Source of the DNA: Boothiomyces macroporosus
Taxonomy: Eukaryota; Chytridiomycota; Chytridiomycetes; Rhizophydiales; Terramycetaceae
DNA: 19,491 nt
Direction of reading: 5' to 3'
Assembly (NCBI GenBank): GCA_027604185.1
Contig: JADGKB010000183.1
Location: 1-19,491, forward strand
Shown one piece after another: positions 21 to 17,984 of this stretch. A program made the position numbers and the translations under genes. Under the pieces are notes generated by a model that did not search any database, was not told the origin of the DNA, and was given only the letters and a program-made list of their open reading frames with translations. Position 1 is the first letter of the stretch, and the number at the start of each line of letters is the position of its first letter.

Positions 21-849
21 TTAATAGTCGTCATCATAGTAGTTGCTTTCAAAGTTGCTGTTGAATTTTGAAGAAGAGTAGGCGGAACAGTAGAAAGCTG
101 GCATTGAGCTAGAACATGCGTTTGGGCAGACATTTTGCACATACCAAGCACCATTGTTGCACATTAGGAATTGGTTTCCATTGCATGCCGAGATATCGCC
201 TTTTTGTGGGTTACATGGCCCACCCGAAACTGGCAAACCTTGGACTGGAGGAGGGTTGTTTGGTGGGTTGTTTGGAGGTGGGTTGTTTGGTGGGTTGTTT
301 GGAGGAGGATTGTTTGGTGGGTTTTGGTTTCCTCCTTGGTTTCCTCCTTGGTTGTAGTTTGTACAGTCGTGCGGATTAACTACCTGATCGCAAGTGCTTG
401 GGTTGCAAGTGTTTTGCACAACCCATCGCTGGCTAGGCTTATCGCAAGTCAAAAAGTTGTGTCCATTGCAAGCCGAGACATCTCCGTTCTGGCTGCTGCA
501 AGTCTGCCCAGCAACAATCCCGCTGTTTGGATTAACAGGCGGGACAGGGGCGTTGCCGCCAGAGTTGTTGTTGCAGTTGTAAGGACCGACATCGATCGAG
601 CACAGGTTTGCACAGGTGTTTTGAACAGTCCTACCGTAAAGCACAAATTACCATCGCTGCGAGGTGGGATCGCAGGTCAAAAAGTAGTTTCCAGTGCAAG
701 CGGATATATCTGGGCCATAGGCAAGACTGTCCAACAGCAATCGCGAATTGCTTGGAGAAGCGGCCGTTGGAGCTGTGGTGTTTCGAGTATCGGTAGCGGG
801 CTTCGGCAAAGACAGCTTGAGCTGCAGCAAGAATGAAGATGGTTTGCAT
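21..849 (-). CDS. Secreted Cys-rich repeat protein (chitin-binding-like), frameshifted
   Basis: The start codon at 849 opens a signal peptide (MQTIFILAAAQAVFAEA). Three copies of a module follow, with the pattern G-x-x-C..GD[IV]SAC.G..F[LM].C..W.VQN.C..C..C. The second and third are separated by a Pro/Asn-rich linker (PPNNPP repeats), and the C-terminus is acidic (YYDDDY). A 21-nt GT-AG intron at 631-651 splits the first module; removing it gives QRW-TVQNTC, matching QRWVVQNTC in module 2. The first module also needs a +1 frame change near 711-723: GQSC is in the signal-peptide frame, but YGPDISAC is one base off. This could be an allelic or sequencing indel or a decaying gene. Corrected length is about 268 residues. 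Cysteine and Gly/Trp spacing is reminiscent of CBM19-like chitin-binding modules, but I cannot assign the family. A secreted or cell-wall location is inferred. Confidence 0.6.
240..352. repeat. Coding minisatellite (Pro/Asn linker)
   Basis: Imperfect repeats built from gggttgtttggtgg and gggttgtttggagg-type units, followed by two copies of tttcctccttgg. On the minus strand they encode the NPPNNPPPNN linker and the preceding GGNQGGNQ stretch of the secreted protein. Length variation between strains would be expected. Confidence 0.8.
631..651 (-). other. Intron, 21 nt, secreted Cys-rich gene
   Basis: Starts GTAATT and ends GGTAG on the minus strand; phase 2 (TG|G). Reading through gives TAA immediately after the Trp codon. 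Confidence 0.8.
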
Positions 850-874
850 TTCCGATTACCAATTATTTTGGTGA

Positions 875-881
875 TTTTATA
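875..881 (-). promoter_or_regulatory. TATA box of secreted Cys-rich gene
   Basis: TATAAAA on the minus strand, first T 32 bp upstream of the start codon at 849. Confidence 0.6.
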
Positions 882-945
882 CTACAACCACGCCACTCTT
901 CTAAATCAAAAAATTGTGCAGCCACAGGAATAGATGTATATCCAC

Positions 946-1028
946 ATATTGTGAGTTTGCGGAATGTTAGGTTAATATTGTGAGTTTGCGGAATGTTAGG
1001 TTAATATTGTGAGTTTGCGGAATGTTAG
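946..1028. repeat. 29-bp tandem repeat, about 2.9 copies
   Basis: Unit starts atattgtgagtttgcggaat. Copies begin at 946, 975 and 1004 and are identical until the third runs into atttaa. No coding or transposon features. Confidence 0.95.
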
Positions 1029-1167
1029 ATTTAATTTGATGAAGATTTCTAGTTGGTACTAGCCACCATGTCAAGATTCACGACCATGCCTCAGCTGTAA
1101 GGTACTACTAGATCTACTTGGTCCTACCACAAATTACCAACCACAATAAGTGCGAATATTATTGTAA

Positions 1168-1174
1168 TTTATTA
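1168..1174 (-). terminator. Poly(A) signal overlapping FKBP2 stop codon
   Basis: TAATAAA on the minus strand: the first TAA is the stop codon and AATAAA starts at its second base. Confidence 0.7.
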
Positions 1175-1592
1175 CAATTCAGTTCTCTTGTTTACAATTT
1201 CCAACAACTCAACATCGAACACTAGAGTAGCACCACCAGGAATCGCACCGCCAGCACCTCTATCACCGTACCCAAGATTAGGAGGAATAGTCAGCTTTCT
1301 CTTTTCTCCAACACACATCCCTAAAAGACCTACATCAGGAAAGAATACCTTGGTCCCATCCCTTGATTACTTGTCCAGCACCCAGCACAAACTCAAACGG
1401 ACCTCTTCCAACTGAAGAATCAAATTGCTTTCCTTCAAACAACTTGCCAGTGTAATGCATCTTCAGCTTGTCTCCAACTTGAGCCGCAACGCAATCCTCA
1501 GGAGCGATCTTGTGCTTGATTCCGATTTGCAATGTTTTTGGAGGATCTTTGCAAATCACTCCTGCTACTAAAATCAGTGCTTGGATTTTCAT
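1172..1592 (-). CDS. FKBP2: FKBP2-type ER peptidyl-prolyl cis-trans isomerase
   Basis: A 133-residue FK506-binding protein. Residues 1-14 form a short signal peptide ([14 protein letters not shown]) and about 22-128 a single FKBP domain with the usual pocket residues: Y47 in HYTG, F57-D58, F66/F68, V75-I76, W79, Y102 and F119. The protein ends in RTEL, the same ER-retrieval-type tail known from mammalian FKBP2, so it probably acts on proline isomerisation in the ER lumen. A 19-nt intron at 1330-1348 interrupts WDQG|LLGM; without removing it the domain ends at an early stop. The stop codon TAA (1172-1174) is embedded in TAATAAA, so the 3' UTR must be very short. It is divergent from MPC1 across only 30 bp and has no obvious TATA box. 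The full length matches the family. Very likely functional. Confidence 0.93.
1330..1348 (-). other. Intron, 19 nt, FKBP2
   Basis: GTATTCTTTCCTGATGTAG on the minus strand, phase 1 (G|GT). CTGAT near the 3' end is the branch-site candidate. Confidence 0.93.
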
Positions 1593-1622
1593 CTAAATTT
1601 TCCAAGCCTCACTTTTCATTAA
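1593..1622. promoter_or_regulatory. 30-bp bidirectional spacer FKBP2/MPC1
   Basis: The start codons of FKBP2 (1592, -) and MPC1 (1623, +) are separated by 30 bp with no TATA box. Core promoters of both genes must lie in this spacer or inside the opposite coding region. Confidence 0.7.
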
Positions 1623-1984
1623 ATGTCGAATCCAGTTGCTCAACGGTCATTGTTAAAAACATTTGGATTCAATTCCGGAAAAGAGTTTCGATCGTATATC
1701 TTTAGTACTCACTTTTGGGGACCGGTGGCTAACTGGGGATTGCCTATTGCGGCGATTGCTGATACTCAGAAATCACCAGAGTTCATTTCTGGCAAGATGA
1801 CTACCGTGCTATCTGTTTATTCTTGTTTGTTTATGGTGTTTGCCTTGAAAGTGCAACCGCAGAACATGCTGTTGTTTGCCTGCCATGCCACTAATGAAGG
1901 TAAATATTTTTAATATTAGCTGCGCAACTGGTTCAAGGATACAGATTCATTGATTACTACTATTTGAATAAAAAGAAGGATTAA
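1623..1984 (+). CDS. MPC1: Mitochondrial pyruvate carrier subunit 1
   Basis: A 113-residue inner-membrane protein, one half of the MPC1/MPC2 heterodimer that imports pyruvate into the mitochondrial matrix. Family landmarks are all present: [20 protein letters not shown] (about 29-48), [27 protein letters not shown] and, after splicing, [10 protein letters not shown] 20-nt intron at 1900-1919 splits NE|AAQ in phase 1; reading through it stops after six codons. The start at 1623 gives a short basic N-terminus typical of MPC1, which uses internal rather than cleaved targeting. The C-terminal [10 protein letters not shown] replaces the variable tail of other MPC1 proteins. AATAAA also occurs inside the last coding exon (1967-1972), just before the stop, so it may double as the poly(A) signal. 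No MPC2 partner is in the window. Confidence 0.96.
1900..1919 (+). other. Intron, 20 nt, MPC1
   Basis: GTAAATATTTTTAATATTAG, phase 1; TTAAT sits next to the 3' site as branch candidate. Confidence 0.95.
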
Positions 1985-2412
1985 ATTCTAGATATTAAGA
2001 TATGGATTGTGGTTAGAGCTTTTAACTTGGATGGGGGTGGTATTGTATAACCGACGGGAATATGAAGGATGAGTATGGTTGTAATCCACTTTTAAACCAC
2101 CGTGCCAGCTAGTAAGCTGAGTGACAAACCTAGATCAAAGAGTTCAATTCAACCGATGAAACTCGCCGAATTCACAGCGCTGCCCAAATAATGACACACT
2201 TGAGGATTGGTCCCAAAAGGGCTGTTTGGTTATAAAATGGATTGCACGAACGAGAAATCTCGGAGGTTCTTTGGAAGGCAAATCCAATTGTTAATGCGCA
2301 TCTGGGTAGCTGTGTTTCCTTGTATATTAACGAATTCAAATTGTACTACTGAAAGGCATGTGGTATGTGGCTTGGAAGGTTATAAAATCGCCCTTAATTA
2401 CAGAACAGACAA
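1985..2412 (+). other. Intergenic region upstream of M13 peptidase
   Basis: Non-coding as far as I can see. Two near-identical ggttataaaat boxes occur, near 2230 and 2379; the second is the likely TATA box of the peptidase. A short ORF beginning ATGGATTGC near 2237 overlaps the peptidase start out of frame; it is either a 5' leader uORF from an upstream start site or chance. Confidence 0.5.
2381..2387 (+). promoter_or_regulatory. TATA box of M13 peptidase
   Basis: TATAAAA, 32 bp upstream of the ATG at 2413, leaving room for almost no 5' leader. Confidence 0.6.
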
Positions 2413-4428
2413 ATGGTGAACCCTAACGTTGCGATCGATCCTCTCAACTTTGACTATTCAGTCGCTCCTACTGAATCGTTCTATAGACATGTGAATGGCG
2501 GATGGTTGGCTAGAACCAACTTTCCTGGTGACGAATCAAGATGGGGAACATTCAGCGAATTGGACGCTAAAAGCAAGAACGACCTGAAGGAAATCTTTGA
2601 ATCTTTTTCAAATTCTAAAGAGGGAACTGCATTGATTGCAGAATTGTTTCTGTCTGGAATGAATGAACAGCAGATTGAAGATTACGGATTTGAACCAATC
2701 AATGATGCCCTAGTTGAATTGGACAACATCCAAGACAAGGCTGAATTATTGAATTATTCCGCAAAGTTGCAGCTGCAAGGATTATTCTCTGGGTTCTGGT
2801 AATTATCAATAATCTAGGTATACTCTGGTAATCCCAGATTTGAAAAACTCTAACGTGAATATGGTCATGTCTGGACAGAACGGAATCTCTCTTCCAGACA
2901 AGGAATACTATGTCAAAGAAACTCATCTAGAAAAACAAAAGAAATTTGTGGAGTTTGTTTCGAAACTGTTTGTTGAATTTGGTTACAATGTAGTGGAAGC
3001 TCAAAAGATTGCTGAATTGGTGTTTTCAATCGAGAAACGAATTGCTGAATTCTCGGTTGATACAGTGGATAGGAGAGATATTGAAAAAATGTACCACAAG
3101 ATGTCTTTGGAAAAAGTGTGCGAGCTGGCTCCTTCTATTAACTGGGCAGCGTTCTATGGATCATTGGGGTTGAAAGATCTTGATCAAGTCAATCTCGAGA
3201 GAACAGAATTCTTTCAAGAAATTGACAAACTCATTTCTGAAACTGACTTGCAAGATTTAAAACTATTCATCAAGGCCCATGTTTTAATTGAATCATCTCA
3301 ATACCTACCAAAAAGAGTAGCTGATCATCATTTCGACTTTTTTGTTACTGCTTTAACTGGAGTAAAAGAAAGAAAACCGCGTTTCAAGGCTGTCATTGAA
3401 TTTGTAGGCTCCAAGTTGGGAGATGATGTTTCTCGTTTGTACGTTGAAAAACACTTTGGCGATAAAGCTAAAGCTGCTGCTAAAGAAATGGTTTCTTTTA
3501 TCTTGGAAGCATTCAAGGAACGGCTTGAAACAATTGACTGGATGACTGAAGGGACAAAAGTAAAAGCACTTGAAAAATTATCTACTTTCAAGGTAAAGAT
3601 CGGCTATCCAGACCAATGGGAGGATTATTCAAGCTTGAATGGAGTAATCAAGAGATCCAATGCTTACCTGACAAATGTCAGAGCTGCTTCTGAATTTGCA
3701 ACAAAGCTATTACTAAAAGAAGCTGGGCAATTGGTAGACAAGGAAAAGTGGAGAATGCCTGCCTACATGGTTAATGCATACTATAACCCTCTTGGCAATG
3801 AAATTGTATTCCCAGCTGGTATTTTACAGCCACCATTCTTTTACGCTCCAACAGATGAATATCCACTTGGAAACCCCGCAATGAACTTTGGAGCTATCGG
3901 GATGGTAATTTCACATGAAATCAGCCATGGTAAAAAGCATTAATTACAGGATACGATGATCAAGGTAGGGCTTTTGATGCGCAAGGAAACATGAACGACT
4001 GGTGGCAGACTGAAGACTCTGAAAACTTTAAAAGCAGAGCTGAAAAAATAATTGCTCAATTCAACGAGTACGAATTCTTTGGCCGTAGCCTAAACGGAAA
4101 ACTATGCCAAGGAGAGAACATTGCTGATTTGGGCGGTATCAACGTATCATACCTTGCACTCCAAAAGTACATTTCCAAGCATCCACAATTACCCATGCAC
4201 AAAAAGTATACTCTGGAGCAGCTCTTCTTTATCTCGTTTGCACAGATTTGGAGAAACCTAATTCGTAAAGAAAAAGCTATTGATTTGCTGATTTCTGATC
4301 CACATAGTCCGGGTGAATTTAGAGTTGATGGGACATTGGCCAACCTTGACACTTTTCATCGTGCGTTTGGGGTGCTGCCTGGCGATAGAATGTACCGGGA
4401 AGCTGAAAAACGAGTGTCTATTTGGTAA
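2413..4428 (+). CDS. M13 family zinc metallopeptidase (neprilysin/PepO-like)
   Basis: A 658-residue, three-exon gene. The N-terminal peptidase_M13_N region begins directly with FYRHVNGGWL, as in soluble bacterial PepO-type enzymes; there is no signal peptide or membrane anchor, so a cytosolic enzyme cleaving short peptides is inferred. Catalytic features are complete: NAYY (448-451) for substrate backbone binding, HEISH (H495, E496, H499) for zinc and catalysis, ENIAD (E555 zinc ligand, D559), and HSPGEFR near the end. The C-terminus KRVSIW matches the family's terminal Trp. Introns at 2799-2817 (19 nt, GFW|YTL) and 3930-3949 (20 nt, HG|YDDQG) are each supported by family continuity. The stop is inside TAATAAA. 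An upstream anchor exon cannot be fully excluded but none was found. Confidence 0.94.
2799..2817 (+). other. Intron 1, 19 nt, M13 peptidase
   Basis: GTAATTATCAATAATCTAG, phase 2 (TG|G); ATAAT near the 3' site. Confidence 0.95.
3930..3949 (+). other. Intron 2, 20 nt, M13 peptidase
   Basis: GTAAAAAGCATTAATTACAG, phase 1, directly after the zinc-binding HEISHG; TTAAT is the branch candidate. Confidence 0.95.
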
Positions 4429-4432
4429 TAAA
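4426..4432 (+). terminator. Poly(A) signal overlapping M13 stop codon
   Basis: TAATAAA, beginning with the stop codon itself. Confidence 0.7.
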
Positions 4433-4525
4433 TATGCCCCATCTTGGTCTTTACATTTAAGTGGTGCATTCTTTGATACGAGTGTTTTAATTGAATTAAA
4501 TATTCTTGTGTTTTAAATCGTTGTG

Positions 4526-4540
4526 TTGGCGATTCGCCAA
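4526..4540. promoter_or_regulatory. 15-bp palindrome upstream of seven-helix gene
   Basis: TTGGCGATTCGCCAA: perfect 7-bp arms around one T, 50 bp before the ATG at 4590. It could be a dimeric transcription-factor site; function unproven. Confidence 0.4.
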
Positions 4541-4589
4541 ATAATCATTGTGGTCATTTAGACGTGGATGTCAAAAAAGTCTAACCTGC

Positions 4590-6308: not shown

Positions 6309-6316
6309 TTGCTTTA

Positions 6317-6322
6317 AATAAA
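6317..6322 (+). terminator. Poly(A) signal of seven-helix gene
   Basis: AATAAA, 9 bp after the stop and 34 bp before the next ATG. Confidence 0.6.
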
Positions 6323-6356
6323 ACTCTAGTCCATTCGTTTTGAATGTGGCGCGCGC

Positions 6357-7227
6357 ATGACAAAATTAAAGTTAAATGAAAAAAGTTTCCAAATGATTGC
6401 TAACCAAGGACCTATAACTTTTTTTCCCAAACCAGTGAAAATACCGCCTGTTGAACTGTCACCGGAACAGCAAGTATTGTTGGATGAACTGCTTTTAAAA
6501 GTGCCAGAACTAGCTCAAGATGAGCAAGAAAAGGAATGGCTGGATAGAGGTTGCTTGTTGCGTTACCTTAGAGCTACCAAATGGGATCTATCGAAATCAA
6601 GTACTCTTTGCTAACCTAGTTGAGAGATTACAAAAGACTTTGGCATGGAGACGCGAATACAAACCACATGAAATTACTTCAGATCATGTACAAGAAGAAG
6701 CAGTTACCGGAAAGCAAATTATATCCGGATTTGACAAATGTGGCCGACCGATCCTGTATTTAATTCCTGCAAGAGAAAATACAAAGACTTATGAGCGCCA
6801 GATGAGGTATACAGTGTACAATATCGAAAAGATTATCAAGATGATGCCAGAAGGCGTAGAAACCTTTTGCATTCTAGTCGATTACCAAGATTTGAGTGTC
6901 ATGACGGCACCACCACTCTCAATCTCTAAACAATTCCTTGAAATATTTGGAAACCACTACCCAGAACGCATGCATATTTCCTTTATCGTTAATCCGTCTT
7001 GGTACATTTGGGTCTTTTTCAAACTTATTCGCCCATTCATTGATCCAGTAACCGCTTCCAAACTACACTTTGTTGGGCAGAATCAAACTAAAAAGGAAGA
7101 TGGGATGGGTGGTTACGTTGAACTTGCTGATTTCATTGACGATCAAATGCTGCTAAAGAATTACGGTGGTACTCATGATTGGGATTGGGACTTTGAGTAT
7201 TACTGGAATAAAATTAAACACCTTTGA
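6357..7227 (+). CDS. Sec14/CRAL-TRIO phospholipid-transfer protein
   Basis: A 283-residue protein. A CRAL-TRIO N-terminal helical domain (about 40-105, RYLRATKWDLSKS...LAWRREY) is followed by the lipid-binding CRAL-TRIO fold (about 115-262), with GRPILYLIPAREN, CILVDYQDLS, FGNHYPERMHISFIVNPSWY and KLHFVG landmarks. The family exchanges phosphatidylinositol with another lipid at cytosolic membrane faces and supports phosphoinositide signalling. Overall layout resembles Pdr16/Sfh-type yeast proteins more than classic Sec14, but this is a judgement by eye. A 19-nt intron (6601-6619) joins SKS|IERLQKTLAWR in phase 1 and carries a textbook CTAAC branch sequence. Start ATG at 6357 lies 48 bp after the upstream stop, so the promoter must overlap the preceding gene's 3' end. 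The C-terminal DWDWDFEYYWNKIKHL is intact. Confidence 0.93.
6601..6619 (+). other. Intron, 19 nt, Sec14-like gene
   Basis: GTACTCTTTGCTAACCTAG, phase 1 (A|TT); CTAAC ends 4 nt before the 3' splice site. Confidence 0.95.
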
Positions 7228-7384
7228 AGTCTATTTTTGTGACATTGAGTTTTGCTTGTGCAATATTGGTAATATTTGGTCATTGACACTGATTTGAGGG
7301 GAGGGTGATATACTCTTGATGTTTTGGCGATTTACTTTTCTCAGTGCATCTTATTTGTGCTTTCTTTTGAATCACAGATTTCAC

Positions 7385-7516
7385 TATCATCTCAATACCT
7401 AATACAGTTAGAACCTTTTCATAATCATCTCAATACAGTTAGAACCTTTTCATAATCATCTCAATACAGTTAGAACCTTTTCATAATCATCTCAATACAG
7501 TTAGAGCCTTTACCAA
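7385..7516. repeat. 31-bp tandem repeat, about 4 copies
   Basis: Unit begins atcatctcaatacagttaga. Copies start near 7386 (with an 8-bp insertion), 7424, 7455 and 7486; the last is degenerate at its end. Confidence 0.95.
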
Positions 7517-8020
7517 TAATAATGTAAAGAGAAGCATATCGGGTTCCATCTTTAATTTCTAAATATAGTAAAATTACGCAGATTTCCTTTTCAAGTGAAC
7601 CCTGCCAAAACAACTCTACAAAAAATTAAAAATCATGAATGGGATGAAACAGACTTAATATTCAATGTACCACTTGGATGCTTGTCAGCTGGTTTATAAT
7701 ATAGTGGTTTGAATTCAATTCGTATGTTGATCATACTCTATTCGATATTCATCATGTTGATCATCGTGATTATGAAAGAAATTCCTTTGCCAAGCATTGT
7801 CCTGGATAATATAAATATATTCTTTTATTCTCAAAGATTCCCTTTCATGAACAGCGTTTGATAATACCGTTCAGCCTTCAATTGCAACTAAACCAAACAA
7901 TGAAACTTTCATTTGAAAAGTGTGAATCACCGAAACCAAACTGAAGGAACCCATTGATTGTAATCTGTCAAAAACGGAAAAGGGGGCAAGTTGTTTGGCG
8001 TCCTGCCGGCCCGTCCCAAG

Positions 8021-8028
8021 TATAAATA
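8021..8028 (+). promoter_or_regulatory. TATA box of small secreted protein
   Basis: TATAAATA, 37 bp upstream of the ATG at 8058. Confidence 0.65.
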
Positions 8029-8057
8029 ACCAGTCAATCTGTGTATTTTTATCAAAA

Positions 8058-8390: not shown

Positions 8391-8394
8391 TAAA
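8388..8394 (+). terminator. Poly(A) signal overlapping secreted-protein stop
   Basis: TAATAAA beginning at the stop codon. Confidence 0.7.
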
Positions 8395-8686: not shown

Positions 8687-10467
8687 ATGAAACAACGAAA
8701 AAACTATAACCCCTGCAGTACACTCAATTTAAACTGTAGCAACGTGTAGAAAACGCAAAGTCAAATGCGACGGTGAGCTGCCGTGTTACAATTGCCAGAA
8801 ATACCGCAAGCAAGTGAAATGCGAATACGAAGAGTACATTGATTTAATATAGGATAAAGTACACCATTCAGAAACCAAAGGTAGATATTCAGAGCTTGTT
8901 TGCGGATGAAATGATTGTTCCGGACACTCTGGTAGTTTCAAATCAATTCGAGTTTCCCTCTTCTGGTCAAAATACCAGCTTTCAACTAAACCCAAATATC
9001 ACTTTGAATCAAACCGGATATGTGATTGATACGTCGCCTTCATTTTCGCAATCGCAAATCGACCCATTCCAGTATTTCAACGATCCAGAAATACTCGCGC
9101 ATTTGTTTTCAATTAGCGCATTCGTTTATTTTCCATTTTCAGTAGTAAATGGAAACCTATGCCCTATTAAAATAGAAGAAGCGTCTCTTATTTACCAAAA
9201 GTCTGTTATTTGCAACTCGATATTCTTTTCAATACATCCCAAACTGTTTCCTTCAGCTCTGTTGGGGATTCCGCCTACTTTTCAGGACCGAGTAAACCTG
9301 GCGTCTTTGATTTACATGGATAGCACCTATATCAAACCAAAGGAAGACTATCTGACTGACAGGGAAATGATTGACGATTTTAGAGGAATGTTTGGATATT
9401 CAGTTTCTTTGTTTGGAATAGGATTTCCTGATAGATCGCTCATCTTGTTTCAAGAAACCTATATATTAGCAATGCGGTATAGATTATTCAACACACATAA
9501 TGCAAAATCTGAAAATATTACTATTGATGATTTGGCAAAGATGGTTGAGTTTGTGGATTTGCAACGGGAAGTAGTTGCTCCAGATGACTGGGACAATCGA
9601 TTAATATTATTCAACATGTGTTTATCTAGTGATACGTATATCAGCATGATTTCTGGGGTACAGTTTATCGTTGATGATACTCTGTTTGATCATTATTTGG
9701 AGAAGCTAGGGCCAGTTACGCTTTTATCGAAAGCACGTAGAGATTTTCCTATCCTAACCGTACCAAATGATTACGTGCATGCAGAAAATACTATTTGGCA
9801 AGGTACCGAGTACGCGACTGTGTATGAAAACGTAAAGAATTCCAATCAATTGATGCAGTACATTAACGCTCGAGAGTTTTGCAGATCAGCCATCAACAGA
9901 ACAAAATTATATCGACGAATAATGACGTTTTCAAGAGCAAAGTCAAAATCGGTAGAAACCAAAGAGGTTTTGTTGGCTGAACTATGCAGTGTTTTTCAAT
10001 TGGATACTTTTGAAGTGGAATTTAGCGATTTGGAAAACTTTGTTGATGGTGAACTGTTGGTTGGGAAAACTAGAATGAAATTTCCCCATATTTACACCAT
10101 CCCGCTAACCAATTTGTTGATGTATTGTTATTTGAATCAACATGAAAAGGACAATCAAGCGATAAAGCCTAATGGAAAACTGTATCCGATAAAAGTGATA
10201 TTTACAGCTGTATTCAATTACCTGCTCAGTCTAGTAAAGTTGGCTACAGAAGCAGAAGGCGTGAATCCACATTTGCAAGCGCCGACAATTATATTTCTGG
10301 TTTACTGCATTGCGAGCAGTTGCCTGGTGAAAGCAGGAACGAATGAAATGAAGCAAAAAATCAGTAACACGGTTCTACCTGTACTAGATAGTGGCAGCAA
10401 TGTTTGGGAGCTGTGTCGGACATATGCCTCGCAGATGCGTCGATTGCTCCAAGTGATTAATTTCTAA
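8687..10467 (+). CDS. Zn2Cys6 fungal transcription factor, paralogue A
   Basis: A 579-residue regulator reconstructed from three exons. The binuclear zinc cluster is at the extreme N-terminus: C10-x2-C13-x6-C20-x5-C26-x2-C29-x8-C38, with the basic RKRKVKCDG core. Intron 1 (8718-8739, 22 nt) splits the codon after C10. Intron 2 (8834-8852, 19 nt) joins EYEE to IKYTIQ and the long all-helical region (about 80-579), which resembles fungal regulatory middle domains. Without these introns the large ORF at 8896 appears to lack any DNA-binding domain. A nuclear DNA-binding activator or repressor is inferred; targets unknown. Paralogue B follows after 25 bp and aligns over the full length, e.g. HAENTIWQGT and SLIYQK..ICNSIF.SIHPKLFPS. 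Confidence 0.92.
8718..8739 (+). other. Intron 1, 22 nt, Zn2Cys6 A
   Basis: Starts GTACAC, ends CTGTAG; phase 1, inside CxxC of the zinc cluster. Removal yields CTTCRKRKVKC. Confidence 0.9.
8834..8852 (+). other. Intron 2, 19 nt, Zn2Cys6 A
   Basis: GTACATTGATTTAATATAG, phase 2 (GA|G), same position as intron 2 of paralogue B; TTAAT branch candidate. Confidence 0.9.
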
Positions 10468-10492
10468 TATATTCAATGTGGCTTTTCTTTTC

Positions 10493-12205
10493 ATGAAACA
10501 ACGCAAGAATTACAATCCCTGCAGTAACCGAGTAATAACCAAGGTGTGTGTAGAAGGAGAAAAGTAAAATGCGATGGTAAACTGCCTTGCTCCAACTGCG
10601 AGAAATACAAACGAGGTGTAAAGTGCGAGTACGAAGAGTAATTCTCAACTAACAAGACCAACATACACGCTCCAACACAAAACCAATTTGGAAAGCTTAT
10701 TCTTTGATCCGGTTCAAGTGCCGGATACACTGGTTTCCAACACGGAATACGATTTGATGAATCTAAAGGATGATGCGGATATGGTAATGGACGACTATAT
10801 CTCTTTCACCATGGATCCGTTTCAGTTTTTTATTGACCCGGATATATACAAGCACCTATCTTTATTATCAACATTTTGGTATTTCCCATTCGCGGTAAGG
10901 AACGGAAACTTGGTGCTCTTGGAAGCAGAAAAGACTTCACTAGTTTATCAAAAAGCAATTATATGCAACTCGATATTTTATTCGATACATCCAAAGCTGT
11001 TTCCTTCTGTCGCTAGTGGGGTGCTTCCCACTTATCAGGACAAGGTCAATCTGGCGACATTGATTTACTTGGACTTGACATTTATCAAGCCCAAAGAGAG
11101 GTATTCTAGTGATAGAGAAATGGTGGAAGATTTTAAAGGACTGTTTGCTTATGCAAGTTTGTTGGGGATACTTGGCTATCCAGACAAAGCAATTAGATTG
11201 TTCCAAGAAACATACTTGCTAGCAGTAAGATACGGGTTGTTTAATCCGAATGAAGTATCTGACAATATTACCGTTGATGATCTGGCCAAGCTGATTGATC
11301 TGACTGATTTACAAAAAAAGGAAAGCAAACTATCAACCGATGAGTGGGATTGTAGGCTATTGCTCTATAATTTGTGCCTGACAAGTGACACATTTCAAAG
11401 TATGATTCACGGGATACAGTTTGTGGTTGATGATACCCTGTTTGATCAATATCTTGGAACACAAAACAAACCATTCAGTGCAGCTAGAGAAATACCGCAC
11501 TTTAAGCCCAGTAATGACTATATACATGCAGAAAATACTATTTGGCAAGGAACAGACTATGCATCAACTTATGAATCGCTCCAAATATCATGCAAGATTT
11601 TTGAATACATTAACGCCAAAGAGTTTTGTAAATCATCAATTAAAAGAACAAAAATACAACGGAGAATCATCAACTTTTCGCGGTCAAAAGTAAAAGACCC
11701 GAGCTTGAAACACCAGCTGCTGGTAGATTTGGATTCATGCTTCCAGCTTGATTTATTTGAACCAGAGTTTAGAGACCTGACCAATTTCCTTGAACCTATT
11801 CTAGTCAAAAACACAAAGTTCAAAGTCCCACATAGCTACACTATTCCATTATCCAACTTGATAATGTACAGTTACCTGAACCAGCATGAAACTGAACCAC
11901 AATTAATCAAACCTGGAGGCGAAAAGTATGAAATCAATGTAATATTCAAAGCAGTATTCAATTATTTGGTGGCATTGATCCAGTCTGCTAATTGCGGGAA
12001 TGGGATTAACCCGCATTTGCAACCACCAACAGTTATATTTCTGGTTTATTGCATAGCTAGTAGTTGTTTGGTAAAGACGAGATTGAACGAAATGAAAAGA
12101 GAAATCAATCGAGTGATTCTGCCGGTTTTAAAGGATGGAGCAGAGTTATGGCAAGTTTGCAAACCGTATGTCACTCAAATGGAAAAACTACTGAATATTC
12201 TATAG
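10493..12205 (+). CDS. Zn2Cys6 fungal transcription factor, paralogue B
   Basis: A 557-residue tandem duplicate of paralogue A. It starts MKQRKNYNPC like A, and its cluster has identical spacing (C10, C13, C20, C26, C29, C38; SVCRRRKVKCDGKLPC). Introns at 10524-10543 (20 nt, AAG end) and 10638-10656 (19 nt, CTAAC then AAG) occupy the same codons as in A although their sequences differ. After intron 2 EEPTYTLQ aligns with EEIKYTIQ of A. The helical regulatory region is colinear with A to the end. Only 25 bp separate its ATG from A's stop, so its promoter must lie in A's coding sequence or the pair is co-transcribed. Its stop (TAG, 12203-12205) is 1 bp from the end of paralogue C on the other strand, and no AATAAA follows nearby. 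Confidence 0.92.
10524..10543 (+). other. Intron 1, 20 nt, Zn2Cys6 B
   Basis: GTAACCGAGTAATAACCAAG, phase 1, within the first CxxC; TAAC branch candidate and AAG acceptor. Confidence 0.9.
10638..10656 (+). other. Intron 2, 19 nt, Zn2Cys6 B
   Basis: GTAATTCTCAACTAACAAG, phase 2, homologous in position to A intron 2; CTAAC directly precedes the AAG acceptor. Confidence 0.9.
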
Positions 12206-12211
12206 TTTATT
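12206..12211 (-). terminator. Poly(A) signal overlapping Zn2Cys6 C stop
   Basis: AATAAA on the minus strand spans the stop codon and part of the last Gln codon. Cleavage would fall inside the coding end of paralogue B, antisense to it. Confidence 0.6.
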
Positions 12212-13837
12212 GAAAAGTAGACAGCATCTTTTCCAATCCTGCTCTGTACTGATTTGCCAGCGGCCAAATAGTTCCAATTTTTCCAAGCATCTTTAGTACT
12301 ACAAAACAGCCATTTGTAACATTATCTTTGATGGATGGATCCACAACAGAGTTGTTGATTGCGTAAATGGTGCTGCTTGCAATACATTGAATAAAGTATG
12401 CCATCATTACATTTCCGAATAACGGGTTGGGTAAAGGAGACTCTACAAAATCTGCGAATTGGATCATGTAGACCACTGCGTTAAAGACAGCCAAGAATAT
12501 ATCTAGATTTGAAAACATTTCAATCCCGTTCAGTTCTAGACTATAAAACGTAGCATCGTGGTTCAATACTCCAGATAAATGGGTGTAACAGAATCCAACC
12601 AGAATTCCACACAGCTTCATGTAATTATCCCTAATGTTTTGTAAATTAGTAGGTTGCTTTACAACAGGTAACTGGCCATAAACAAACGGAACTAGTGAAT
12701 TGATGATTGCGAAATCTTGCTGTATGCTAGACATGGAATTCAATAAAAAGAGATGGTATTCCCTTCTAACTTGACCATCAGATTCCAATTGTTCATATTT
12801 TTTTCTTCGGGAGAAATCGATAATTGTGCGATAGGATTTCATCAACTGCATTTGGTTCTTTGCCTTGTACACTGCATCAGGTAGATATTGCGGTATCAAA
12901 CAGGTGGTTTCTTTGATCAAGTCGAATATTGGTTTCCATTCCTTGTCCCACAAATGATGCTCGCTTTTCCTGATGCTTTGAAATTCCACTATGTTTACTT
13001 TTGGATTGTTGAATGGAGCAATGTTGGGATATTGCGAATGATCAATGACGAATCCTTCTCCTTCAGACATTGAACAATAAGTATCAATCTGGAAAATGTA
13101 GCAATAAAGGGAAAACCGCTCTGTAATCTCGTATTCGTTCAACTGCGGCGTAGAGATGGAAAGTAGAGATACCAAATCATCTATCGACAACTGATTATTA
13201 TGATTAAAGTTGTCTGGATGAAACACTTTGTATTTCTTGCCAATCTTGAAGCAGTCAGACAAGAGCTGTCGTTGCATGTCATAATCACCTATTTGATGAT
13301 AGCCTTGGTTAAAGAATAGTACCTATGGATTGGTGAAGTAGTGCATGCAAATCATCACACAGCTCCTGGTTGGTAATATAGCTTGAGAGCGGCCTAATCA
13401 TCTTTGAATCAATACAAAACCGATTTGCTATTTTGAGCCGTTGCTGAAACGTTGGATTTGCTGGAAACAAGAGCGGATGATTAGAGTAAAAGCAGCTATT
13501 AAAGCACAGCGCTTTGCAAAGTAAGGGAGACAGGTTGTGTCTCAACATTGAGTGAACAGACTGGAATTTTTCGTTTACTGAATAGCCCTGGTGATACAGG
13601 AACGACAGTTCAATCAAATGCCGCTCAATCGATTGGTCAATTACTGTATCCACCAGCACAGTTTCCATTGCAATTTCTTTGGGGTTATAATCGTAAATAC
13701 AAATAGGAGTAGTGTCTTTGGAAATTCTTTTGAATGACTGGCAAGAGGAGCATGGCTGCTGCCCATCACACTTTACTTTGCGCTGCTTGCACCTGGCTAT
13801 ATTAGTATACAGTACCACAGGGTTTTTTTCTTTCCAT
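12207..13837 (-). CDS. Zn2Cys6 fungal transcription factor, paralogue C (diverged)
   Basis: A 530-residue relative of A and B on the opposite strand. Exon 1 is only MERKKPC plus one base; intron 1 (13797-13815, 19 nt, ACTAAT branch) joins it to ARCKQRKVKCDGQQPCSSC. The cluster is C7, C10, C17, C23, C26, C40, with a longer last loop (13 residues) than in A and B (8). Intron 1 is at the same place inside the first CxxC as in A and B. Intron 2 (13304-13322, 19 nt) joins LLHQSIG to YHQIGDYD, matching GYSVSLFGIGFPD of A; A and B have no intron there. The regulatory region is colinear but clearly more diverged. It converges on B with 1 bp between stop codons. The ATG at 13837 is 128 bp from the divergent seven-helix gene. 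Confidence 0.9.
13304..13322 (-). other. Intron 2, 19 nt, Zn2Cys6 C
   Basis: GTACTATTCTTTAACCAAG on the minus strand, phase 1 (G|GC); TTAAC branch candidate and AAG acceptor. Confidence 0.92.
13797..13815 (-). other. Intron 1, 19 nt, Zn2Cys6 C
   Basis: GTACTGTATACTAATATAG on the minus strand, phase 1 (G|CC), between the first two cluster cysteines. Confidence 0.9.
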
Positions 13838-13865
13838 CAAAGCACTTTCGGCATTTGATTTTGCC

Positions 13866-13898
13866 TTGTGGCTCTGGAAAGTATTGTGGCTGGAAAGT
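13866..13898. promoter_or_regulatory. Direct repeat in divergent promoter
   Basis: TTGTGGCTCTGGAAAGT and TTGTGGCTGGAAAGT, separated by 1 bp, in the 128-bp gap between paralogue C and the compact seven-helix gene. Possible paired factor sites. Confidence 0.35.
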
Positions 13899-13965
13899 TA
13901 AGTGGCGTTTAAACAACTTGCAAAAAAACATTAAGGCCACTTGACTTGAGATCACTGACACTCCA

Positions 13966-14884
13966 ATGATTTCGCAGGTGCAGATTGATGAGTTGGACAA
14001 GAGCAATGCTTTGGCCTACCCGTGTGTGGTATCCGGGCTTTTGATACTAATAGAGGCACTCTGTTTTGTTGCATACATACACAACGATTGCATGAAGCAC
14101 AATAGAAAGTTCAAGACTCTGTTCAACTTTTCGCTGGCAGGTTATTCACACTAATATAGGCAAATATCTATTAATTTAGGTACAAAATATCTATTAATTT
14201 AGGTACAAAATAGTGTAATTTAGGTTTACTGGTAACGAACGCAGCGGCTCTAATATCATTCGGCAACTCTTCGCTTCTACCGAAACTTGCGTTATATGGG
14301 TATATAGGCACTTCTGTGTGGCTCTGCTTGTACAAATCGTTGTTTATAGGTAAAAAGCACCAATTCAGGGTACTCTTACTTTAGATCATACTCTCTCTTT
14401 GAATCCAAGGGCTATAGAAAGAAACTCGAGTTTGCCCTCTTTGTATCTGCAGTTTCATTTCATGTTCCATGGATATTCAAAGTTTTGTTGTTGACTAGTG
14501 CCAATCCAACGCAGTTAATCAGTATATCAAATATCTTTGGGTTAATAACTTCGATTATAGCACTGCTGTGGGATATTATTTTCATGACGGTATTCATACA
14601 CCGAATATGGTATAGGACAGAAAAGGATAGCCGAATAGACACGATTGCAGTAATAATCAACTAACTAGATTTGCGGTATATACGCATGTGTGTTTTCCAT
14701 AGTAGCACTAATAATATCTGTGATTCCAATTGATGCAAAAGAGTATCTCTATTTCGTTTGTCTGTGGATGCTGAATGGCGCCTGTTTATCACTAGTTGTC
14801 ATGAAGGTGATGCTCATTCAAGAAGAAAAGCTGCGAAGGTTTGAAATGGAGCTTGAGTCTCGCACTGTTGTTCATGTAGAATAA
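13966..14884 (+). CDS. Compact 265-residue seven-helix membrane protein
   Basis: Four exons encode a protein that is nearly all membrane helices, at about 15-38, 51-72, 79-101, 120-142, 151-177, 194-214 and 219-243, with a short charged C-terminal tail. Size and helix number resemble small receptors or rhodopsin-like proteins, but no lysine-retinal motif or class signature is evident, so function is unknown. Introns: 14141-14223 (83 nt, see separate entry), 14350-14368 (19 nt, CCAATTCAG end) and 14650-14668 (19 nt, CTAAC then TAG). After removing the first as 83 nt the second helix reads SLAGLLVTNAAALISFG, continuous and hydrophobic. The reading frame is consistent through all four exons. It is divergently transcribed from paralogue C. 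It is not obviously related to the larger seven-helix protein at 4590-6308. Confidence 0.8.
14141..14223 (+). other. Composite 83-nt intron made of four intron-sized modules
   Basis: Boundaries follow from the frame: SLA|GLLVTNAAAL, phase 1. Inside, GT/GC...AG units abut exactly: 14141-14159 (19 nt, GTTATT..ATATAG), 14160-14179 (20 nt, GCAAAT..TTTAG), 14180-14202 (23 nt, GTACAA..TTTAG) and 14203-14223 (21 nt, GTACAA..TTTAG). The middle part is a 23-bp tandem duplication. An alternative acceptor at 14244 would drop 7 residues and stay in frame. Confidence 0.7.
14350..14368 (+). other. Intron 2, 19 nt, compact seven-helix gene
   Basis: GTAAAAAGCACCAATTCAG, phase 1; read-through would stop at TAG after LLL. 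Confidence 0.85.
14650..14668 (+). other. Intron 3, 19 nt, compact seven-helix gene
   Basis: GTAATAATCAACTAACTAG, phase 0, joining DTIA to ICGIYAC; CTAAC adjoins the TAG acceptor. Confidence 0.88.
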
Positions 14885-14921
14885 GTTGAAAATTTTGTAA
14901 TTTCAATTTGTGTAGAGTTAG

Positions 14922-14964
14922 TTTTGTTGTAATTTTGTTGTAGTTTTGTTGTAGTTTTGTTGTG
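14922..14964. repeat. 11-bp tandem repeat, 4 copies
   Basis: Unit TTTTGTTGTAG, with the first copy ending AA and the last truncated. Confidence 0.9.
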
Positions 14965-15244
14965 CTAGGATGAAAGTTGCATTCCAAGCACTTGGATATG
15001 GGAGCGGAATACTATAATCGGAATCGTTTGTCATTCGAGTCACAGTAACCGTTCCAAACATACCTTTCTGGTTCTGCCAAACTAGTTTCTCTGTAGATTA
15101 ACTATTCTAATGAGGAAATTCTATTCCGCATCCTCTCATGAGAAAAAGAAATGTCTAAGCAAACTCAATTATTTCTCTGCGTTCCAAAAAGTCCAATTAC
15201 CACAGTTCCTGTGTCCACATAGCCACCTATTGGGTGGAAAGGGA

Positions 15245-15251
15245 TATAAAA
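15245..15251 (+). promoter_or_regulatory. TATA box of P3B ATPase
   Basis: TATAAAA, 46 bp upstream of the ATG at 15291. Confidence 0.6.
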
Positions 15252-15290
15252 GGATCTGGAAAAAAACGATCGACACATTCTAATGCCAAA

Positions 15291-17984
15291 ATGCAGTTCC
15301 AAGTACTCGTTGAAAAACCACAAGCTGAATATGATTTAAGCATCACGAACGAAATCAAACATATTCAACTCGACCATCCAAGCTATGGTCCAATCGCTGA
15401 TTACGAACATCAAGAATTACAAGAAAAGTACGGTAAGAATATCCTGTCTGTTTCAAAGCCAATGCCATGGTACAAGCTCTTGTTCTTTTCCGTATTTCAA
15501 ATGTTTAATCTGATCCTCCTGTTTCTGGCTGCAATATCTTTTGCAACTGAAGACTATGTCACTATGACAATCATGCTGGTTATGGTTTCATCTTCCAGCT
15601 TACTAAAGTTTTACCAAGAACTAAAGTCAAACATTGCCTGTCAAGCATTGAAAAATATGGTGCAAAACCACTGCACTGTCATCCGAAAGTACTCTACCCC
15701 AATTGATAGAGACCCTTCTTACAAAGACGTGGAATTGATGGATAGTGGATACATGATTGAAAAACAGATTGCACTTGAAGATGTTGTTCCTGGGGAATTC
15801 CTCCGTTTGCGCGCTGGTGACTTGGTTCCTGGGGATGTAAAGGTATTACAAGCCAAAGACTTTTTTGTTTCTGAAGCTTCCTTGACTGGTGAATCAATTC
15901 CACTCGAGAAATTTCCGTTGAAAATACTTGAAACCCAAAACTATAATACTTTTTCTGAAAAAGAGCCTGCTGTATGCTTTATGGGATCTTCAGTGGTTTC
16001 TGGAACAGCTATCGTAATGGTTGAAAAAATTGGGTCTGATACAATGTTTGGTAAATTGGCTGAAAAGCTCGCTTCTGCAAAAAGTAAAACTGCTTTCCAA
16101 ATTGGCAAGTTGTAATTGATAATAGGAATTCGCAAAGTTTCGTTTGCTTTTGTTAGATTGATGGCTTCCATGCTGCCTATCGTCTTTGTACTATCAGGGC
16201 TGATTCAAGGCGATTGGTTCCAAGGATTCCTTTTCGCGGTTGGATTTGCTGTCGGACTTACTCCAGAAATGCTTCCAATGATTGTCAATCCCTGTCTCGC
16301 AAAAGGAGCAATTTACATGTCCAAACACAAAGCAATCGTAAAGAAATTGGATTCTATTATCGACCTTGGCTCAATGAACATCTTGTGCACTGACAAGACT
16401 GGAACTTTGACTCAAAACAAGGTTGTATTGGTACGATATTTGGATTTGTTTTCAAACAGCTGCACTCTTCCACTTGAAATGGCGTTTATGAATTCCAGCC
16501 ATCAAACTGGGTTCCGAAACTTGATTGATGAAGCAGTCATTACCCATTACAATTCCATCCATCAAGAACAAACTCTATTCTCAAACAAAGCGGTAAAGAT
16601 TGATGAAATCCCATTCGACTTTGTTAGAAGAAGAATGTCTGTTGTGCTCAAAGAAAACAATCAAACGATAATGATTTCCAAAGGAGCAATTGAAGAAATG
16701 CTGGATATCTGTGTCAGCTACCACCAAGATGGCCAAATCCTCGAGATGACTGGTGAAATTCGTCAAAAAGCTCTAGATTTATCTATTGAATTGAACACTG
16801 AAGGGCTTCGAGTAGTTGCAGTTGGATACAGATATATCGCTAACGACCAAACTGATTTTGGACCCAAAGATGAAAAGGAAATGATTTTTGCTGGCTTGAT
16901 TGCATTCTTGGATCCACCAAAAGAATCTACCAAGCAAGCTATTCAAGAATTAATCCAATACGGAGTTCAAGTCAAAGTGCTCACTGGCGATACTCCCCAA
17001 GTATGCAAAAAAGTTTGTCAAGAAATCAATCTTCCTGTTGATGGAATCTGCACCACGTTTGACTTGGAAGGGAAATCAGACGATGAAATTGCGAATTATG
17101 CTCACAAATGCACAATCTTTGCCAAATTAACTCCTCTACAAAAAGCTCAAATCGTCAATACATTGAAAAATCAAGGAAACGTGGTTGGGTTCTTGGGAGA
17201 TGGAATTAATGATGCACCAGCATTAAAAGATAGCTCTGTTGGCATTTCTGTAGACGAGGCAGTTGAAGTAGCAAAGGAAACTGCAGATATTATCCTCTTG
17301 GAAAAGTCTTTGATGGTTTTGGTTGATGGTGTAATAGAAGGAAGAAGGACCTATTGCAACACCATCAAGTACATTAAACTAGCCCTTTCCTCTAATTTTG
17401 GAAATGTATTTTCTGTTCTTGTAGCTTCTGCTTGGTTGCCATTCATTCCCATGCTTCCGCTCCAAATTGTGGTTCAAAACATGCTCTATGATTTTTCACA
17501 AACAGTCATTCCATGGGACAATGTAGACAAGGAGTTTGTCAAAGTACCACGAACATGGAACGTCAAATCCCTCCTACAATTCACATTCTTTTTTGGTCCA
17601 ATCTCGTCCATTTTCGACATTACCACATTTACATTCTGCTGGTTTGTCTATGGTTGCGCAACTAACCCTGATGCATGCGCTGCTGAATTCCAAACTTCAT
17701 GGTTCTTGGAGGGCTTGATTACACAAACCTTGATTGTCCACTTTATCCGATCTGAAAAGATTCCATTCATTCAAACTACTGCAAATTGGCGATTGATCCT
17801 TTCAACAATATTGGCTTGTTTGGCAGCTATCATCATTGCTACTACACCACTTGGAAACTGGTTTGAAATGCATACTCCAAGAATAGAGTTTTATTTCTAT
17901 TTGGTTGCACAAGTTGTTGGGTACTTTGTTTTAGCAACCCTTGGGAAAATGGTTTACCTAAAGATTTTCAAAACCTGGATGTAG
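15291..17984 (+). CDS. mgtA: P3B-type Mg2+-transporting ATPase (MgtA-like)
   Basis: An 890-residue P-type ATPase, close to the bacterial MgtA length. P-type features: actuator LTGES (198-202), phosphorylation site DKTGTLT with D361, nucleotide-domain VLTGD, and GDGINDAP (629-636). Subtype features: GLTPEMLPMI in helix 4 (P318-E319-M320) and QNMLYDFSQ in helix 6, both typical of P3B magnesium pumps rather than P2 calcium or P3A proton pumps. Expected role: ATP-driven Mg2+ import; the membrane in which it sits is unknown. A 21-nt GC-AG intron at 16105-16125 joins FQIG to IRKVS, restoring the conserved G-[IV]-x-[KR]-V-S stretch. The ATG at 15291 is chosen over an upstream in-frame GTG that overlaps the TATA region. 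AATAAA lies 4 bp after the stop. P3B pumps are mainly bacterial, so an old transfer is plausible; intron, TATA box and local base composition argue against contamination. Confidence 0.95.
16105..16125 (+). other. GC-AG intron, 21 nt, P3B ATPase
   Basis: Starts GCAAGT, the usual strong context of GC donors, and ends AATAG; phase 1 (G|GA). GT donors further in (17 or 14 nt) do not restore the frame. Confidence 0.9.

Follow-up and report, generated by a model that had tools for sequence, protein, structure and literature searches.

A likely genome-wide population of 19–22-nt spliceosomal introns in a rhizophydialean chytrid

The window analysed here, a 19,491-nt stretch of a chytrid genome, carries genes whose reading frames are interrupted by segments of only 19–22 nt, which raises the question of whether these are spliceosomal introns and, if so, whether they represent the genome or a local oddity. 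A preliminary description had proposed fifteen such introns in nine genes. Rechecking against the sequence placed all fifteen segments where they had been described and with the same sizes (nine measure 19 nt, three 20, two 21 and one 22; Table 1), although we count ten host genes. Fourteen have GT-AG ends and the one at 16105 has GC-AG. Donors beginning GTAA or GTAC, as had been proposed for all of them, hold for 13 of the 15, the others being GTAT (1330) and GCAA (16105). The donor motif of U12-type introns, RTATCCTT, is absent from all 15, and scanning the window for Rfam families and tRNAs gave no matches. Phases were computed for the 15 introns, that of 631 being taken from the split codon TG|G; with the 83-nt intron at 14141 included, phase 1 accounts for 11 of 16, as previously counted. 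This excess is local, because the 146 gene-finder calls of 17–25 nt in a larger sample (below) divide 60/57/29 among phases 0/1/2.

Table 1. Putative introns of the window, with the units of the composite intron
Feature	Position	Strand	Phase	Host gene
21-nt intron	631..651	-	2	gene of repeated Cys-rich units, 21-849
19-nt intron	1330..1348	-	1	FKBP2-type prolyl isomerase, start 1592
20-nt intron	1900..1919	+	1	mitochondrial pyruvate carrier 1, start 1623
19-nt intron	2799..2817	+	2	M13 metallopeptidase, start 2413
20-nt intron	3930..3949	+	1	M13 metallopeptidase, within zinc motif
19-nt intron	6601..6619	+	1	Sec14/CRAL-TRIO protein, start 6357
22-nt intron	8718..8739	+	1	Zn2Cys6 protein A, start 8687; between cysteines 1 and 2
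19-nt intron	8834..8852	+	2	Zn2Cys6 protein A
20-nt intron	10524..10543	+	1	Zn2Cys6 protein B, start 10493
19-nt intron	10638..10656	+	2	Zn2Cys6 protein B
19-nt intron	13304..13322	-	1	Zn2Cys6 protein C, start 13837
19-nt intron	13797..13815	-	1	Zn2Cys6 protein C
83-nt composite intron	14141..14223	+	1	multi-pass membrane protein, start 13966
units of 83-nt composite intron	14141-14159, 14160-14179, 14180-14202, 14203-14223	+		
19-nt intron	14350..14368	+	1	multi-pass membrane protein, start 13966
19-nt intron	14650..14668	+	0	multi-pass membrane protein, start 13966
21-nt GC-AG intron	16105..16125	+	1	P3B-type (MgtA-like) ATPase, start 15291

Precise removal of the segments brings back the reading frame and family residues, in the window genes as on other contigs, and the earlier claim that conserved residues are restored was borne out for the FKBP2, MPC1, M13, CRAL-TRIO/Sec14, Zn2Cys6 and P3B (MgtA-like) proteins. 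The FKBP2-type protein becomes 133 residues long, with an FKBP_C match (124 bits, profile positions 5–94 of 94) that spans the junction; unspliced, it stops at residue 85. The Sec14/CRAL-TRIO protein also stops at residue 85 unspliced and reaches 283 residues spliced, with both CRAL_TRIO_N and CRAL_TRIO. Spliced mitochondrial pyruvate carrier 1 has 113 residues, 25–112 of which match the MPC family at 106.7 bits. In the metallopeptidase the Peptidase_M13_N match is full-length; the 2799 junction aligns without gaps to 9eyg_A, with one single-residue gap a few residues upstream, and removal at 3930 gives HEISHGYDDQGRAFD, in gapless alignment with HEMTHGFDDQGRQFD of the same chain. Retention at 16105 leaves an in-frame stop in the ATPase, and removal gives AFQIGIRKVSFAFVRLM, aligned without gaps to AFQQGISRVSMLLIRFM of 8uy7_A.

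Three paralogous Zn2Cys6 proteins have an intron at the same site. Its removal yields PCTTCRKRKVKCDGELPC in protein A (8718; Zn_clus 36.9 bits), PCSVCRRRKVKCDGKLPC in protein B (10524, the intron sequence being unlike that of 8718) and PCARCKQRKVKCDGQQPC in protein C (13797; Zn_clus 27.3 bits). Proteins A and B share a second site, at which removal joins CEYEE to IKYTIQ (8834) and to PTYTLQ (10638; branch CTAAC at offset 14). Removal at 13304, an intron recovered by our gene finder, merges two long frames into one of 530 residues. In the Cys-rich gene, retention at 631 produces a stop after SQRW, and removal gives SQRW-TVQNTC, like SQRWVVQNTC in the next unit of the same protein; a branch-like A lies at offset 14. 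The membrane protein meets a stop shortly downstream if 14350 (branch-like CCAAT, offset 13) is retained, and this segment is removed in its 265-residue frame; 14650 (branch CTAAC, offset 14) was picked up by the first-pass gene finder. Under a permissive branch test an A is found at offset 13 or 14 in all 15 introns, with the five bases around it differing from YTRAY in five (631, 2799, 8718, 10524 and 14350).

The same membrane protein carries the longer, composite intron, in which four intron-like units of 19, 20, 23 and 21 nt stand head to tail, each starting with GT or GC and ending in an AG preceded by TAAT. Among the 16 combinations of units, only removal of all four gives the 265-residue frame; the other 15 meet a stop within 66 codons. 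Tandem Repeats Finder reports a 23-bp array at 14162-14225.

Beyond the window, we sampled 200 kb of another contig, for a total of 219.5 kb, using a dynamic-programming gene finder whose prior on length was flat, with wrong dinucleotide pairs as controls; intron lengths up to 250 nt were covered in this sample and up to 75 nt across the whole assembly. At cost 10 the finder placed 102 GT-AG segments of 19–22 nt against 11, 11, 9 and 13 for the wrong pairs, and a looser run placed 148 against 29, 24, 18 and 24, with the GT-AG excess confined to these lengths. A first, over-merging version had given 26 against 4, 2 and 3. A third pass, in which site weights were learned, made 190 calls, 139 of them at 19–22 nt, though only five of the 15 window introns were recovered exactly. 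One call, in NAC-beta, was made and counted at 17 nt; a 20-nt reading through the next AG fits too. Across the 15.2-Mb assembly, motif matches of 14–44 nt numbered 878 against 355 in the control, 82 of the first 100 being 19–22 nt long, and one 20-nt pattern occurred 185 times against 18. We estimate that the assembly holds roughly ten thousand 19–22-nt GT...AG segments.

A motif scan of the 200 kb gave 90, 109, 64 and 48 matches at 19, 20, 21 and 22 nt, with 19–43 per length at 16–18 and 23–40 nt; its reversed control ran higher overall (45–78 at 17–40 nt), and only 19 and 20 nt exceeded it (90 and 109 against 66 and 59), with no excess at 21 and 22 nt (64 and 48 against 66 and 67). With CTAAC alone the 200-kb scan showed no excess at 19–22 nt (24 against 28), and CTAAC was dropped as a fixed branch motif, since it misses most introns. 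Local comparison of spliced and unspliced frames found 23 GT-AG segments of 19–22 nt against 0–7 in six other pairs; another such scan stayed near its controls (24 against 7–18 in seven other pairs), and one with too-strict thresholds returned no segments.

These counts bear on the alternative that short introns are a minority, the main population being of ordinary fungal size and the window a local oddity. The 83-nt intron of the window would fit it, as would the 43 of 190 third-pass calls longer than 25 nt; 18 of these 43 carry at their start or end a loose short-intron motif, matched by 2.8% of GT sites, and could each be a fusion of two short introns, although genuine longer introns may be among them. 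Against it, at 41–250 nt the wrong-dinucleotide controls exceed GT-AG at cost 10 (142–157 against 111), and the looser run shows no excess either (431 against 420–608). In the whole assembly the 45–75-nt matches (284 against 349 in the control) likewise show no excess, whereas those of 14–44 nt do. A main population of ordinary size is thus contradicted for lengths up to 250 nt, and we regard this alternative as improbable. The genome-wide mode at 50–80 nt that the preliminary description had named as its refutation was looked for and none was found, and its proposal of a genome-wide miniature-intron population in a fungus is supported by both the gene finder and the motif counts.

A branch motif surfaced unprompted in the gene finder, where 54 of the 63 calls had an A at -7 and 46 had a T at -9. 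Among the 146 short calls, 129 contain a branch motif, mainly TTAAT, CTAAT or TTAAC, and 17 have no recognisable one; in 109 of the 129 the donor-to-branch spacing is 13 or 14 nt, the branch points being inferred from the motif, so that the branch A falls mostly at intron position 14 or 15. A search of the 200 kb and the window together for a GTA donor with YTAAY 13 or 14 nt away gave 137 occurrences, and the reversed sequence gave 9. The motif-only count, which uses no coding information, gave 86, 51 and 12 at offsets 13, 14 and 15 against 4, 5 and 7 reversed (149 against 16 in total), with 0–5 at other offsets. Both features by which an ultra-short population is recognised, a genome-wide modal length no greater than about 25 nt and a branch motif nearly fixed in position, were found.

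Protein similarity places the genome in Terramycetaceae (Rhizophydiales), an initial yeast assignment having been dropped, and CTG reads as leucine in the Prp8 frame. All eight spliceosomal parts looked for were matched: U2, U6, Prp8, SF1, Isy1 and Cwc25 above their family cut-offs, U1 slightly below (68.8 against 69.5 bits) and the U2AF large subunit well below (230.7 against 310.3). U1 carries ACUUACCUG, U6 carries ACAGAGA, and both copies of U2 carry GUGUAGUAUCUG, the branch motif being predicted to pair with U2 GUAGUA. Cwc25 keeps its N-terminal Gly-rich plug, MGGGDLNLKKSW, and its MGGGDLNLKKSWHP is identical to the human chain; its start was set by homology, the frame being open upstream. 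The N-terminus of Isy1, whose lack of conservation would be a further Stentor-type change, was also compared: the Isy1 model aligns to human Isy1 only from residue 43, with a Pfam match from position 4, and its first exon is uncertain. Judged by sequence, U2, U6, Prp8, SF1 and the plug of Cwc25 appear canonical.

Introns of this kind also interrupt conserved genes elsewhere. SF1 is restored by removing introns of 24, 22 and 21 nt, and Isy1 recovers two aligned stretches on removal of a 20-nt and a 19-nt intron. On the sampled contig, prohibitin has three 20-nt introns and aligns without gaps to 9urz_B after their removal, and Spt16 carries such introns as well, its third junction adjoining a one-residue gap relative to three more distant relatives. 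The database protein of one relative has a gap exactly at one of these introns and that of another a gap beside it, as if annotation pipelines mishandled introns of this size. Gene models of the clade may be wrong where pipelines enforce a minimum intron length.

That the segments instead stay in the mRNA, to be skipped by ribosome bypassing or frameshifting or read as short peptides, is very improbable: the third SF1 segment has a length of 3n and no stop, as such a reading would allow, but keeping it in disrupts the CCHC zinc knuckle. Splicing, unlike bypassing, also predicts the GT-AG ends, the fixed spacing of the branch motif, the use of all three phases and the recognisable U1, U2 and U6. 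Excision from DNA, in the manner of ciliate internal eliminated sequences, or assembly errors and pseudogenisation, to which duplicated stretches in the assembly and an unexplained frame break in the first gene might point, is judged extremely improbable: the segments have GT-AG ends and a branch motif, and the same pattern is found throughout the assembly, conserved genes such as Spt16, SF1 and prohibitin included.

We infer that the 19–22-nt segments are excised from pre-mRNA, and on these sequence data they are very probably ordinary U2-type spliceosomal introns near minimum size, distributed genome-wide. U1 would pair with GTA(A/T/C/G), and YTRAY would be chosen by SF1 and U2, giving a predicted lariat ring of only 14–15 nt; the fixed donor-to-branch spacing would act as a ruler setting both ends together (intron definition). 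The 3' splice site would be the AG 5–7 nt past the branch A, leaving no space for a polypyrimidine tract between them. Because the core machine appears canonical, adaptation would be expected in early assembly or minor contacts and not in loss of spliceosomal parts. Arrays of tandem AG|G units, like the one at 14141-14223, would be removed either as a single intron or unit after unit. We lean, with reservations, towards a broader reading in which a fungus arrived independently at the lower limit of intron size, its whole nuclear intron population having collapsed to 19–22 nt with a 13–14-nt ruler, and with an otherwise canonical spliceosome that retains the Cwc25 plug, the trait being common to other Rhizophydiales families, hidden by gene predictors, and its tandem arrays removed unit by unit.

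If the segments are spliced, this chytrid would join the organisms with the shortest known introns, for which the problem is how a multi-megadalton machine grips a donor and branch site separated by a dozen nucleotides. Chlorarachniophyte nucleomorph introns, reportedly of 18–21 nt, are the closest in length, but belong to a relict endosymbiont nucleus, whereas the chytrid has an ordinary fungal genome. No fungus with such introns appeared among the matches listed from open-licence PubMed Central papers. The known cases given in the preliminary description, nucleomorphs and some ciliates, omit the mikrocytids (Rhizaria; 16–17 nt; PMC10245619), which share the very narrow size range. Theirs, however, is the case of a reduced parasite, with 224 introns in Mikrocytos mackini and 17–19 spliceosomal proteins, whereas the chytrid has an estimated ten thousand introns and eight matched spliceosomal parts, two of them below cut-off. 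Other fungi also have spliceosomal introns, but about three times longer, as in Cryptococcus neoformans (mean 63 bp; PMC8476143); the accessible portion of that survey of 644 genomes names no ultra-short population, and gives its two Chytridiomycota a mean of 3.93 introns per kb of coding sequence. In Paramecium and Nyctotherus the whole population is ultra-short, as here, but these are ciliates and their introns are longer (about 25 nt; PMC5014332). The heterotrich ciliate Stentor coeruleus (PMC9505925) has introns of 15–16 nt, of which 92.81% are exactly 15 nt long; its branch A is mostly at position 10, and it shares with the chytrid GT-AG ends, near-uniform tiny length, AT-richness, a near-fixed branch A and conserved snRNAs; the chytrid differs in its 19–22 nt and in a branch A mostly at 14 or 15. 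Stentor Cwc25 is described there as without the Gly-rich plug, which is intact in the chytrid, and protein parts that would clash with a small lariat ring are conjectured to have changed. That conjecture would lack generality if the plug is kept in a fungus that uses a ring of 14–15 nt, and the chytrid would extend the tiny-intron problem to the opisthokonts, close to the yeast and human spliceosomes of solved structure.

All fifteen segments of 19–22 nt that had been preliminarily described as introns are present in the window at the lengths claimed. In several genes their removal was said to restore family sequence, and seven of the eight spliced proteins submitted to Pfam matched the expected family (ten genes carry the segments; Zn2Cys6 B and the Cys-rich repeat protein, gene 1, were left out), the spliced membrane protein giving no Pfam family match. 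Translation after splicing yields FKBP2 (133 aa), MPC1 (113), M13 (658), a Sec14-like protein (283), Zn2Cys6 A (579), Zn2Cys6 C (530), the membrane protein (265) and an MgtA-like ATPase (890), and Zn2Cys6 B was also translated in spliced form. In alignments with solved structures the junctions within HEISHGYDDQGRAFD of M13 and AFQIGIRKVSFAFVRLM of the ATPase are ungapped, and the first M13 junction follows a few residues after a gap of one residue. The segment at 631 splits SQRW from TVQNTC in gene 1, and the next repeat of the same protein reads SQRWVVQNTC. From the DNA, we infer that such segments would be spliced out.

In each of the three Zn2Cys6 paralogues the stretch between the first two cysteines is interrupted by an intron, which measures 22 nt in A, 20 nt in B and 19 nt in C. 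Paralogues A and B are identical at 91 of 125 aligned exon positions, compared with 12 of 22 in the first intron and 12 of 20 in the second; the intron sites are thus conserved while their sequences drift within a narrow range of lengths. Other features of the window were also recorded. The start of gene 1 (about 710–849, minus strand) has a signal-peptide-like sequence, MQTIFILAAAQAVFA, in a different frame from the remaining gene, and no tiny intron accounting for this break was seen. P-type 1 magnesium-transporting ATPases occur in bacteria, and the MgtA-like gene is possibly an old transfer.

Coordinates of the composite intron and other features of the window
Feature	Position	Description
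Composite intron	14141-14223	83 nt; units of 19, 20, 23 and 21 nt, head-to-tail
MgtA-like P-type ATPase	15291-17984	best solved relatives named magnesium-transporting ATPase, P-type 1; 823.6 bits
Tandem repeat, 31 bp	7401-7511	intergenic
Tandem repeat, 29 bp	946-1028	intergenic
Tandem repeat, 27 bp	246-323	encodes Pro/Asn-rich stretch of gene 1

In the composite intron of the membrane-protein gene, the sixteenth intron of the window, only one of the 16 combinations of units opens the frame, namely the removal of all four. A 23-bp tandem repeat spans 14162–14225, covering units 2–4, and the array therefore most likely grew by tandem duplication. On another contig, a 37-nt motif match (C4:258886–258922) divides into intron-like units of 16 and 21 nt joined as AG|GT, and is possibly a second tandem intron.

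The window is contig C183 of an assembly whose 216 contigs total 15,203,306 bases. Long frames served to train a gene finder, which was run on 200 kb of contig C1 and the window and could place any GT-AG segment of 10–250 nt at a single flat cost. At cost 10 it called 102 GT-AG segments of 19–22 nt versus 11 for TG-GA, 11 for CT-AG, 9 for GT-AC and 13 for AG-GT; 63 GT-AG segments of this size were called at cost 14. At 41–250 nt GT-AG gave 111 calls versus 142–157 for the wrong pairs, and 431 versus 420–608 in a looser run. A later pass, for which the finder derived splice-site weights from the short introns it had called itself, ran for GT-AG only and returned 190 calls: 36, 55, 30 and 18 at 19, 20, 21 and 22 nt, seven at 17, 18, 23 and 25 nt, one at 14 nt and 43 longer than 25 nt. 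This pass recovered only five of the fifteen window introns exactly.

Scanning 200 kb for GTA...TAAY...AG by total length gave 90, 109, 64 and 48 matches at 19–22 nt and at most 43 at other lengths from 12 to 40. The reversed sequence gave 66, 59, 66 and 67 at 19–22 nt from a higher base level, and the scan by itself therefore gives a clear signal at 19 and 20 nt only. The cleanest of the four counts, because it is independent of coding and total length, is that of donor-to-branch offsets in 219.5 kb (GTA, YTAAY and YAG, with 1–3 nt between motif and YAG): offsets 13, 14 and 15 had 86, 51 and 12 matches and the remaining offsets between 7 and 22 had 0–5 each, against 3–8 throughout for reversed sequence. 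Across the whole assembly, GTAA-CTAAY-NNTAG at 14–44 nt had 878 matches versus 355 for the backwards pattern; of the first 100 listed, all on C1–C4, 82 were 19–22 nt long. At 45–75 nt the whole assembly showed no motif excess (284 versus 349 backwards). The claim of a genome-wide miniature population, for which an ordinary-size mode was the counter-test, thus held: in 219.5 kb no other mode appeared at lengths of up to 250 nt. By extrapolation the genome would hold about 9,200 introns of the strict motif (149 matches less 16 in 219.5 kb, scaled) or about 11,700 at the density of the window, both figures being for an assembly that contains duplications. Identical pattern matches recur at constant offsets within C2 (42,596), C3 (about 21,618), C10 (53,656) and C20 (45,067), and Cwc25 is found on both C49 and C100; the cause is either haplotypes that the assembly keeps apart or large duplications of recent date.

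Intron anatomy was taken from 146 gene-finder calls of 17–25 nt, which are 71% A+T. Donors were GTAA (76), GTAT (30), GTAC (20), GTAG (9) and others (11), with GTAAGT in only four, and acceptors were TAG (101), CAG (30), AAG (13) and GAG (2). A branch motif was present in 129; the predicted branch A is preceded by 13 or 14 nt in 109 of these and followed by 5–7 nt in 121. Under a permissive test, a branch-like A stands at 13 or 14 in all fifteen window introns. With the branch A placed by motif throughout, we infer a lariat size and a donor-to-branch ruler. At least one short call fell in 66 of 131 predicted genes.

Possible traces of such introns were seen in relatives' proteins. Spt16 is 93% identical to that of Terramyces sp. 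JEL0728, while among named proteins with at least 88% query coverage those that follow are at 61–67% (best 120 of 895 matches), and prohibitin is 99% identical to that of Boothiomyces sp. JEL0838, the next being at 82% (best 120 of 7845); both genera belong to the Terramycetaceae, Rhizophydiales. Prp8 was at 83% to a partial Basidiobolus protein, in a search whose length limits excluded full-length Prp8 proteins, a match that would point to early fungi. The prohibitin of Boothiomyces is likewise 272 residues long, with nothing inserted at the sites of the three 20-nt introns; provided that its gene contains these introns too, the annotation pipeline evidently removed segments there. The Terramyces Spt16 database protein (P0121) lacks ten residues, VEIAHLERVQ, which here are encoded by exactly the last 30 nt ahead of intron 5 (20 nt). 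That of Kappamyces sp. JEL0680 (P0125) lacks thirteen, exactly 39 nt after the intron 5 site, and carries insertions of 8 and 9 residues at other positions; Polyrhizophydium, Gorgonomyces and Batrachochytrium Spt16 are complete at this site. Predictors stretching an intron to about 50–59 nt, or leaving in-frame introns unspliced, would produce such gaps and insertions, which suggests that Kappamycetaceae may share tiny introns.

Among splicing components, U6 carries ACAGAGA and its core is normal, U1 starts AUACUUACCUGG (score 68.8 versus a cut-off of 69.5), and U2 occurs in two diverged copies (L029 on C80 and L030 on C178), both with GUGUAGUAUCUG. The two U2 genes are identical in the branch-recognition region and diverged in their 3' halves. 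A 1196-residue part of Prp8 aligns to the human protein with 2297.6 bits. For the U2AF large subunit there was a single strong match, which contains in-frame stops and reaches 230.7 bits versus a whole-protein cut-off of 310.3. The SF1 gene is itself interrupted by three introns (24, 22 and 21 nt). The third of them is stop-free and a multiple of three, and was retained by the gene finder, placing seven extra residues inside the zinc knuckle CRICNSVGHLARDC. The Isy1 model (L044 on C39, start 1433), whose first exon is uncertain, begins MAPKTLAQKQE..., unlike the usual MxRN.

No report of such introns in Terramyces, Boothiomyces, Rhizophydiales or chytrids was among the open-licence papers listed; annotators of these genomes may have noticed them. 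Chlorarachniophyte nucleomorphs have such ultra-short populations. Other reports describe them in Stentor (PMC9505925), mikrocytids (PMC10245619) and other ciliates (PMC5014332). In Stentor the Cwc25 plug is missing, and the authors of that study conjecture that without it a collision with the small lariat is more easily avoided (PMC9505925). In contrast, Cwc25 here starts MGGGDLNLKKSWHP, with the start set by homology and the frame open upstream, and over these residues the plug sequence is identical to human.
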